This document shows positions 6,670-8,905 of a stretch of DNA of 43,148 nucleotides, piece after piece (within the stretch, counting starts at the first letter, position 1; each line of letters opens with the position of its first letter). The translations under genes were made by a program, and so were the position numbers. The notes beneath the pieces were generated by a model. That model was given only the letters and a program-made list of their open reading frames with translations. It made no database searches and was not told the origin of the DNA. The DNA comes from Candidatus Rokuibacteriota bacterium (lineage in GTDB: Bacteria; Bacteroidota; Bacteroidia; Flavobacteriales; Flavobacteriaceae). The DNA is taken from contig OMJU01000021.1 in the NCBI GenBank assembly GCA_900299425.1, positions 1 through 43,148 of the forward strand, given 5' to 3'.

Positions 6670-6702
6670 TTTGATTATTTGATTTTAAAATCCTTATATT
6701 TG
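6670..6702 (+). promoter_or_regulatory. Bacteroidetes-type sigma-A promoter for the HU gene
   Basis: TTTG (6670-6673), N21, TATATTTG (6695-6702); ~60 nt upstream of the HU ATG. Confidence 0.75.
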
Positions 6703-6761: not shown

Positions 6762-7052
6762 ATGACCAAAGCAGACATTGTCACAGAAATTTCAGAGAAA
6801 CTAGGTTTAGAAAAAGGGGACGTACAGGCTACAGTTGAGGCCTTTATGGGTGAGGTAAAACAATCTTTGGAGTCCGGCGAAAATGTATATTTGCGAGGGT
6901 TTGGAAGCTTCATCATCAAAACGAGAGCGGAAAAAACCGGAAGAAATATTTCTAAAAACACAACGATCAAAATACCAGCCCACAATATCCCTGCATTCAA
7001 ACCGGCAAAAGTTTTTGTAGAAGGCGTAAAGGCTGGCGTTAAAGTCAAATAA
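6762..7052 (+). CDS. HU/IHF-family DNA-binding protein
   Basis: 96 aa: MTKADIVTEISEKLGLEKGDVQATVEAFMGEVKQSL, GFGSFIIKTRAEKTGRNISKNTTIKIPAHNIPAFKPAK. Confidence 0.96.
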   Translation: MTKADIVTEISEKLGLEKGDVQATVEAFMGEVKQSLESGENVYLRGFGSFIIKTRAEKTGRNISKNTTIKIPAHNIPAFKPAKVFVEGVKAGVKVK

Positions 7053-7096: not shown

Positions 7097-7186
7097 ATGC
7101 CAAGTGGTAAAAAAAGAAAAAGACACAAGGTAGCGACGCACAAGCGCAAGAAGCGTAGACGCGCAAACCGCCACAAGAAGAAGTAA
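7097..7186 (+). CDS. 29-aa highly basic protein (MPSGKKRKRHKVATHKRKKRRRANRHKKK); candidate small ribosome/RNA-associated protein
   Basis: Direct translation of ATG CCA AGT GGT AAA ... AAG TAA at 7097-7186. Below the ORF-track length cutoff. Almost entirely K/R/H, between HU and RNase G. Confidence 0.85.
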   Translation: MPSGKKRKRHKVATHKRKKRRRANRHKKK

Positions 7187-7363
7187 TTCAAAATTACTTG
7201 TTCAAACCAATGTTCTTTGACATAGAAATAAGTTCATACAATTTGCTTATTTCTGCAGGCCTATTCAAAATCAACTCTGTTGATTTTGAACCTGTGTTCA
7301 AAATTGTTTAATCCATCCCTTCCTAAACACAGTGTTTTTGGATGGGGATAAAAATTAATTAAC
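7187..7363 (+). promoter_or_regulatory. Structured leader of the RNase G gene with boxA-like motif and competing hairpins
   Basis: TGTTCTTTGACA at 7211-7222; hairpin 7225-7253 (GAAATAAG/CTTATTTC); 12-bp hairpin 7264-7290 (TTCAAAATCAAC-TCT-GTTGATTTTGAA); alternative hairpin 7283-7304 (ATTTTGAA-CCTGTG-TTCAAAAT); CCATCC/GGATGG 7313-7345. Confidence 0.6.
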
Positions 7364-8905
7364 GTGAACTACGAATTAATCGTTAGATCCAGTTCACAAC
7401 AAGTTGATTTTGCCCTTTTAAAAGATGGAAAACTAATCGAACTTCACAAGGAAGCAGAGGACAATAAATATTCCGTTGGAGACGTGTTTATCTCCAAAGT
7501 TAGAAAAACTGTCCCTGGACTCAATGCCGCATTTGTCAATGTGGGTTATGAAAAGGATGCATTTTTGCATTATCATGATTTGGGTCCAAAAATTCTGTCA
7601 ACCTTGGAGTTCGTAAAACGTGTAAGCACAGGAAAATTAAGAGATTACTCCTTAAAAGAATTCCCATTAAAAAAAGAGATTGATAAAAATGGTAGCATTA
7701 ATGATGCCCTTAAAAATAATCAATCAATTCTGGTACAAATCGTAAAAGAACCCATTTCAACAAAAGGTCCGCGCATCAGCTCGGAGCTTTCTTTGGCTGG
7801 ACGCTATGTCGTTTTGGTGCCTTTTTCTGACCGTATTTCAATTTCACAAAAAATTGAATCTAATGAAGAAAAAGAACGACTAAAAAGACTGATCAAGAGC
7901 ATCAAGCCAAAAGGTTTTGGGGTCATCATACGCACTGTAGCAGAGGGTAAAAAAGTAGCAGAACTGGATAGAGATTTAGAAAATCTCATGGATCGCTGGA
8001 CAGCGATGTGTAAAAAGCTACGTGGGGCGCACCTCCCTAGTAAGGTGCTCAGTGAACTCAATAGAGGCGCTTCAATAATTAGAGATATGTTTAACGAATC
8101 TTTTTCGGCCATTCATATCGATGACGAAACCCTCTATTATCAAATAAAAGATTATGTGCAAGCCATTGCACCTAAGCAGGAGAATATCGTAAAGTACTAT
8201 GACGCCAAAGTGCCAATTTTTGAAAAATTCGGCATTGAAAGGCAGATTAAAACTTCATTCGGCAAAACAGTTTCTGGTGCCAAAGGATCCTATTTAGTGA
8301 TCGAACACACCGAAGCACTCCATGTCATTGATGTCAACAGTGGTAACCGAAGCAATAAGTCCAAAACACAAGAGGACACTGCTCTGGAAGTCAATTTATT
8401 AGCAGCAAGTGAGGTGGCCCGTCAGCTCAGACTAAGAGATATGGGCGGCATCATTGTTGTAGACTTCATTGATATGGCAAAAGCCGAGCATCGCAAAAAA
8501 CTATTCAATCATCTTCGCGATGAGATGAGTGATGACAAAGCGAAGCATAAAATTCTTCCCCCCAGCAAATTTGGACTCATCCAAATCACCAGACAACGCG
8601 TGAGACCTGAGGTCAACATTAAAACGCGTGAAATAAACCCCAATGCAGGGGCTAGTGATGAAATTGAGCCACCAATTGTTGTGGTACAGAAAATTGGCGA
8701 AGAGCTGAAAAGGCTCATCAACAAAGACTATAAAAGAATAACTTTAAACACACACCCTTTTATAGCAGCCTTTTTAACCAAAGGCTTTCCATCATTGCGC
8801 ACCAAATGGTTTTTGGAGCACAAACAATGGATAAGAATTCAACCTAGAGATGCTTACACGTACCTAGAATATCATTTCCAAAACGATAAAGGAAAGGATA
8901 TATAG
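7364..8905 (+). CDS. rng: Ribonuclease G (RNase E/G family), GTG start
   Basis: S1-like N-terminus (YSVGDVFISKVRKTVPGLNAAFVNVGYEKDAFLHYHDL), catalytic DVNSGN, GGIIVVDFIDM, GLIQITRQRVRPE. Confidence 0.96.
   Translation: MNYELIVRSSSQQVDFALLKDGKLIELHKEAEDNKYSVGDVFISKVRKTVPGLNAAFVNVGYEKDAFLHYHDLGPKILSTLEFVKRVSTGKLRDYSLKEFPLKKEIDKNGSINDALKNNQSILVQIVKEPISTKGPRISSELSLAGRYVVLVPFSDRISISQKIESNEEKERLKRLIKSIKPKGFGVIIRTVAEGKKVAELDRDLENLMDRWTAMCKKLRGAHLPSKVLSELNRGASIIRDMFNESFSAIHIDDETLYYQIKDYVQAIAPKQENIVKYYDAKVPIFEKFGIERQIKTSFGKTVSGAKGSYLVIEHTEALHVIDVNSGNRSNKSKTQEDTALEVNLLAASEVARQLRLRDMGGIIVVDFIDMAKAEHRKKLFNHLRDEMSDDKAKHKILPPSKFGLIQITRQRVRPEVNIKTREINPNAGASDEIEPPIVVVQKIGEELKRLINKDYKRITLNTHPFIAAFLTKGFPSLRTKWFLEHKQWIRIQPRDAYTYLEYHFQNDKGKDI

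Follow-up and report, generated by a model that had tools for sequence, protein, structure and literature searches.

To our knowledge, the role of Nus factors was long believed to be confined to rRNA and phage, and the main cellular exception is suhB in γ-proteobacteria. The boxA-containing leader of E. coli suhB is repressed by Nus factors as a form of Nus-factor autoregulation (Baniulyte 2017, PMC5725501), and boxA-like sites were found ahead of other genes in γ-proteobacteria (PMC5725501). For Synechocystis there is support for autoregulation of an RNase E/G gene through the rne 5′ UTR, with cleavage inside a U-rich stretch (PMC10989929). Structured 5′ elements of flavobacteria have been described, 64 of them in F. 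psychrophilum (PMC9723704), as have ribosomal leaders (PMC7247131); the elements named in the text searched are pheA, hisG, ftsY, acsA, alaS, rimP and the ribosomal leaders, and rng is not among them.

The region upstream of rng in the window, i.e. the whole stretch of 43,148 nucleotides analysed here, contains a structured boxA leader that is real and widespread and apparently undescribed: no report of a boxA leader of rng was found in Rfam 15 or in the open-access literature searched, to which the claim of novelty is limited, and control of RNase E/G in Bacteroidota likewise appears undescribed in this literature. We interpret the region as a conserved cis-regulatory 5′ leader of the Flavobacteriaceae Rne/Rng gene, by which Nus factors would couple the supply of RNase E/G to ribosome synthesis, and assign this reading a probability of roughly 0.55. 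It resembles the suhB leader of E. coli and Enterobacteriaceae in that boxA occurs in the untranslated region ahead of a protein-coding gene with a link to ribosome biogenesis, and in being conserved in many genera. In contrast to suhB, the regulated gene encodes RNase E/G and not a Nus factor, the phylum is different, three covarying hairpins are located between boxA and the start codon, and the start is over 100 nt away from boxA, compared with about 50 nt at most in the suhB type; by gene and by distance the leader falls outside that type. The boxA has one mismatch to GYTCTTTAANA, a γ-proteobacterial consensus. Like the rne 5′ UTRs of E. coli and Synechocystis (PMC10989929), it is structured, precedes an Rne/Rng-family gene and combines hairpins with a single-stranded A/U-rich stretch, but it has no sequence or model match to them and carries boxA. 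The flavobacterial structured 5′ elements are similar in being lineage-specific structured leaders without Rfam hits.

In the window, a gene for an HU/IHF-family protein is followed by the bS22 ORF and rng, with 177 nt between the latter two (Table 1). The rng product scores above the cut-off of TIGR00757 and under the curated cut-offs of both the RNase G and the RNase E equivalogs. In the relatives inspected bS22 is also ahead of rng, and the recurrent layout in Flavobacteriaceae is bS22, a terminator-like hairpin, GTTCWTTGAMAT, three hairpins and rng. Both the bS22 ORF and boxA had been overlooked in an earlier note on this DNA.

Table 1. Features of the rng locus and its leader (coordinates in the window)
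Feature	Position	Strand	Basis or content
Bacteroidota-type promoter motif TATATTTGCC, before HU/IHF gene	~6692-6700		read off sequence
HU/IHF-family DNA-binding protein gene, first gene upstream	6762..7052	+	Pfam PF00216, E=5.5e-28
Ribosomal protein bS22 (bL38/AURKAIP1-COX24 type), 29 aa, MPSGKKRKRHK...	7097..7186	+	PDB 7jil chain 5, E=4.2e-11
P1, terminator-like hairpin AAGTAATT-CAA-AATTACTT, overlaps bS22 stop codon	7181..7199	+	fold
Whole conserved element, boxA to rng start	7212-7363	+	boxA, P2, P3, linker, P4, spacer
boxA GTTCTTTGACAT, putative NusB/NusE binding site	7212..7223	+	conservation, match to rRNA boxA
P2 hairpin, directly 3′ of boxA	7224..7254	+	8/8 counted pairs changed on both sides, two independent alignments
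P3 hairpin, closed by CAGG/CCTG; in the window with TTCAAAATCAAC/GTTGATTTTGAA 12-bp stem	7256..7294	+	fold
Single-stranded linker ATTGTTTAATCC between P3 and P4	7303..7314	+	1.63 bits per column, near-invariant columns
P4 hairpin before start codon, U7316-C7323 with G7340-A7348	7316..7348	+	fold; 7-8/8 pairs changed on both sides
A/T-rich spacer, 15 nt, translation initiation region	7349..7363	+	P4-to-start distance
rng, Rne/Rng-family endoribonuclease, 513 aa, GTG start	7364..8905	+	PF10150, E=5.9e-99

The upstream regions of rng were gathered from 58 related genomes, and 80 named loci from Aequorivita, Algibacter, Arenibacter, Sinomicrobium, Gramella, Flavobacterium and others were also used. 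The covariance model of the leader, R1, has hits in 34 of the 37 Flavobacteriaceae among the relatives. A family-wide draw of 251 Flavobacteriaceae genomes gave 221 with the element, covering 182 of 203 genera; in a class-wide draw, 8 of the 11 Flavobacteriaceae have it and the 279 genomes from other families all lack it. The filters of these searches were stricter, so that weak matches may account for some of the absences. With few exceptions there is one hit per genome. The element is located directly upstream of rng and behind bS22 in all 89 Flavobacteriaceae loci checked. The element is absent from 21 genomes representing the order's other families, although rng follows bS22 in all of them for which the upstream region is readable. 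A single hit of R1 outside the family is weak (G042, E=0.03); its locus shows no rng (L258), and the hit was taken as a false positive. Several Flavobacteriaceae lack boxA or an R1 hit. Two examples of such natural losses are the loci L030 (G030) and L036 (G023), which have bS22 and rng separated by spacers of 60 and 115 nt without boxA and leader.

The structure of the leader was analysed in two alignments, A1 of 46 leaders and A2 of 61 rows, the latter comprising the window and 60 leaders, each at most 86% alike to any A1 row, to which the A1 structure was applied. Changes on both sides were found in all eight pairs of P2 and in all eight pairs of P4 in A1, where 83.8% of cells are paired (66.0% in shuffled alignments) with a covariation score of 0.573 (0.261 shuffled). 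The respective values in A2, whose loci were picked among model hits so that some bias towards the model remains, are 87.9% (71.3%) and 0.503 (0.216); none of the 500 shuffles of either alignment reached the observed values, and sliding the partners by 1–3 columns in A2 gave scores of at most 0.179. Compensatory changes above the controls in an independent set identify the leader as a conserved structured cis-regulatory RNA. The folding energy of the window leader is -41.1 kcal/mol compared with a shuffled mean of -26.3 (z = -4.1), and the mean z over 181 leaders is -3.8. The earlier note had proposed a structured cis element of an Rne/Rng-family gene and had suggested a search for compensatory changes across Flavobacteriia; these are strongly evident in both alignments, and covariation together with the anchoring to the rng start bears the proposal out.

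The information content is highest in boxA (1.70 bits per column), followed by the linker, and is 0.74–0.80 in the stem arms of P2 and P4, where low values are expected since the helices are kept by compensation. P2 begins 1–3 nt past boxA. In P4, 92–94% of cells are paired, and its distance to the start codon has a median of 15 nt (IQR 14–16) in both alignments, the total distance from boxA to the start being 109–222 nt (5–95%). Covariation is weaker in P3, which is kept more by sequence on the 3′ side: its 3′ arm CCTGTG is conserved, and the 5′ arm is variable and occurs in two registers (CRGG or CGGAT).

Nine leaders from several genera (L087, L088, L090, L093, L101, L112, L119, L132 and L135) have boxA about 215–325 nt from the start; they contain long palindromic or repeat-like insertions in the apical loop of P4, sometimes also between P3 and P4, and the base of P4 is kept. 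RNAalifold additionally pairs GTTC of boxA with GAAC, GAAT or GGAT of the start region (A1 columns 4–7/246–249), which in the window corresponds to 7212–7215 with about 7365–7368, the first rng codons. The columns are nearly invariant and show no real covariation, and this pairing, either an accident of conservation or a real contact, is not claimed.

The linker core TTGTTTAATCC is A/U-rich, nearly invariant and single-stranded, with hairpins adjoining, and the linker is a candidate cleavage region of RNase E/G. By analogy with rne, the enzyme may bind a hairpin of the leader, cut its own mRNA between P3 and P4 and thereby lower its own expression, boxA being secondary. We consider such autoregulation a serious possibility, somewhat short of even odds: the gene is a member of the Rne/Rng family, the linker has the expected properties, and a precedent is known in the 5′ UTR of E. 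coli rne and supported in Synechocystis (PMC10989929). However, it leaves boxA unexplained as the best conserved part of the leader, and no Rfam covariance model, that of the rne 5′ UTR family included, matches the window or 15 relatives. Autoregulation and control by Nus factors are compatible and not exclusive.

A hairpin with a T-run is found between the bS22 stop codon and boxA in 188 of 199 leaders, and the stop codon is inside the P1 stem in 90 of 112. A ribosome finishing bS22 could block the P1 terminator and allow the polymerase to enter boxA and rng, so that rng would follow the translation of bS22. Readthrough of some kind seems to be needed, since the Bacteroidota promoter motif TAnnTTTG was found near boxA in only 5 of 199 leaders, and the stretch from boxA to the start contains it in 3 of 199, which gives no evidence that rng has a promoter of its own; given the lack of a recurrent motif near boxA, the transcript probably begins at the HU-bS22 promoter and passes through P1. 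Coupling to bS22 translation is nonetheless an unlikely explanation of the leader: the T-run that most relatives have after P1 is lost in the window, P2–P4 and boxA are left unexplained, and in compact genomes a stop codon often falls within a terminator. The bS22 ORF, which is Lys/Arg-rich and has 29–30 aa, could play the part of a leader peptide that permits readthrough into rng.

The terminator-like hairpin after bS22 is also what would be seen if the hairpins were a passive 3′ end of the hu-bS22 transcript, serving to terminate or stabilise it and having no function for rng. This is very improbable, as P2–P4 have no T-run in the window and families without the element still have bS22 followed by rng. 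Moreover, the gap from bS22 to boxA varies from 24 to 387 nt whereas P4 is fixed at 15 nt from the rng start; the element thus belongs to rng and not to bS22.

The leader had been described in the earlier note as an attenuator in which three copies of TTCAAAAT (at 7187, 7264 and 7297) compete for a single complement, ATTTTGAA (at 7283). These repeats are at the positions given, the 12-bp hairpin at 7264–7290 and the GAAATAAG/CTTATTTC stem are present, and the local arrangement is unusual, any 8-mer occurring three times together with its complement in 15 of 4000 dinucleotide shuffles of 7187–7363. In the window as a whole TTCAAAAT occurs 9 times against an expectation of 6.7, a count attained in 28 of 100 shuffles, and so shows no enrichment. 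Competition between the copies is, however, extremely unlikely. The P3 hairpin has an ensemble probability of ~1, and both the alternative hairpin of the third copy and the pairing of the first copy have probabilities of ~0; the isolated alternative hairpin has -6.1 kcal/mol versus -15.4 for P3. The first copy is part of P1, where it makes up the loop region, and the third overlaps the 5′ side of the linker. Competition is not conserved even within the genus, being possible solely in the window's species and one near-identical relative: at least two copies of TTCAAAAT are found in just 3 of 199 leaders, and the P3 3′ arm and the linker are complementary over at most 8 nt in the window, 7 nt in the nearest relative, 3–6 nt elsewhere in the genus and mostly 3–4 nt over 166 leaders.

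In the window, no hairpin with a T-run is present between boxA and the start, so an attenuator with an intrinsic terminator is not supported; the sole terminator-like hairpin of the leader, P1, sits before boxA. The complement in the CCATCC/GGATGG stem of the earlier note does exist, but the favoured final stem (7316–7323/7340–7348) is shifted by 3 nt and the stem as named has a probability of 0.004. The register 7313–7318/7340–7345 (AUCCAU/AUGGAU) was rejected as the conserved form, with a covariation of 0.099 versus 0.092 in shuffled alignments. No conserved alternative pairing was found, neither among the TTCAAAAT alternatives, which are not conserved, nor in the second P4 register, which does not covary.

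The boxA was identified in 111 of 113 leaders, and a further set of 89 loci has it without exception. In rRNA operons of Flavobacteriaceae the same motif, GTTCWTTRAMAT, is found in the same genomes: it is present in the 16S leaders of relatives, with GTTCATTGACAT in their 16S-23S spacers, relatives being used for this comparison since 16S was not found in the window's MAG. The forms in the 16S leaders of relatives are GTTCATTAACAT, GTTCATTGACAT, GTTCATTGATAT and similar. There is a slight difference between the rng boxA, mostly GTTCTTTGA, and the rRNA form, mostly GTTCATTGA/GTTCATTAA; furthermore, the rRNA boxA is followed by a ATTGACAGCG-like motif, whereas the rng boxA lacks it and is followed by P2 in an mRNA context. 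Genome-wide, the pattern GTTCWTTGAMAT has 46 matches in eight genomes, of which 18 fall in the leader or the 16S-23S spacer of rRNA operons and 6 are at rng, and two further genomes have GTTCTTTGATAT at rng, which is outside the pattern. Among the other matches 18 were inspected and four left out; 16 of those inspected are inside ORFs, one is intergenic, and one is in a doubtful short antisense ORF or intergenic. In the eight genomes scanned, rng is the only protein-coding gene with a recurrent intergenic boxA. NusB is encoded in the window's genome and nine others (TIGR01951 above cut-off).

The presence of boxA, a control tag otherwise on ribosomal RNA, suggests that the supply of the RNase is tied to ribosome production. 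Once the polymerase has transcribed boxA, NusB and NusE (ribosomal protein S10) would bind the RNA and load the Nus complex, as on pre-rRNA, and the complex would set the amount of polymerase or ribosomes reaching rng. It may shield the long untranslated leader from Rho or, alternatively, repress translation, as is the case for suhB in E. coli; the sequence does not discriminate between activation and repression of rng. Given the location of P2 closely after boxA and of P4 immediately before the spacer, the two hairpins seem positioned such that they present boxA and shape the initiation region. Shine-Dalgarno sequences go unrecognised by the ribosomes of Bacteroidia (PMC9976891), and control of initiation would thus have to act via structure near the start, which the fixed position of P4 would fit. 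The output of RNase E/G would then follow the supply of Nus factors and S10, i.e. the rate of ribosome synthesis, and self-cleavage of the linker is a plausible second layer by analogy with rne.

Counted against control by Nus factors are the distance of boxA from the start, mostly 110–220 nt compared with less than 50 nt for most suhB-type sites, the losses of boxA or R1 in several Flavobacteriaceae, the missing ATTGACAGCG-like motif and the different form of boxA at rng. Nus-factor coupling, if true, would carry the control of mRNAs by Nus factors into another phylum through a boxA leader on RNase E/G conserved in more than 180 genera, and would link RNA turnover and the maturation of rRNA to ribosome synthesis. 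The leader is also a compact RNA, for which the structure model is strong and precise mutations can be specified. We tentatively speculate, as a possible but doubtful extension, that the Nus regulon of Flavobacteriaceae could consist of the rRNA operons and, in essence, a single mRNA encoding RNase E/G, whose leader would imitate the start of pre-rRNA. BoxA and self-cleavage could then form a two-input homeostat for ribosome maturation, synthesis of the enzyme scaling with free Nus factors and S10 and with its own unoccupied activity.

Mimicry of the 16S 5′ end (GTTTAATCC versus GTTTGATCC) was also considered and is not claimed, as by a rough estimate a coincidence with one mismatch arises easily by chance. 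Among the matches inspected, a single one outside rRNA and rng is clearly intergenic, namely GTTCTTTGACAT in genome G021 (L259:601, + strand), located ~43 nt ahead of an ORF starting MVTKLHKNPFPANRIGKRREVRKNELLF. Upstream of 16S in three loci (L144, L145 and L147), there are apparently two tandem promoters per rRNA operon, with a boxA-like GTTCWTTGR after each.
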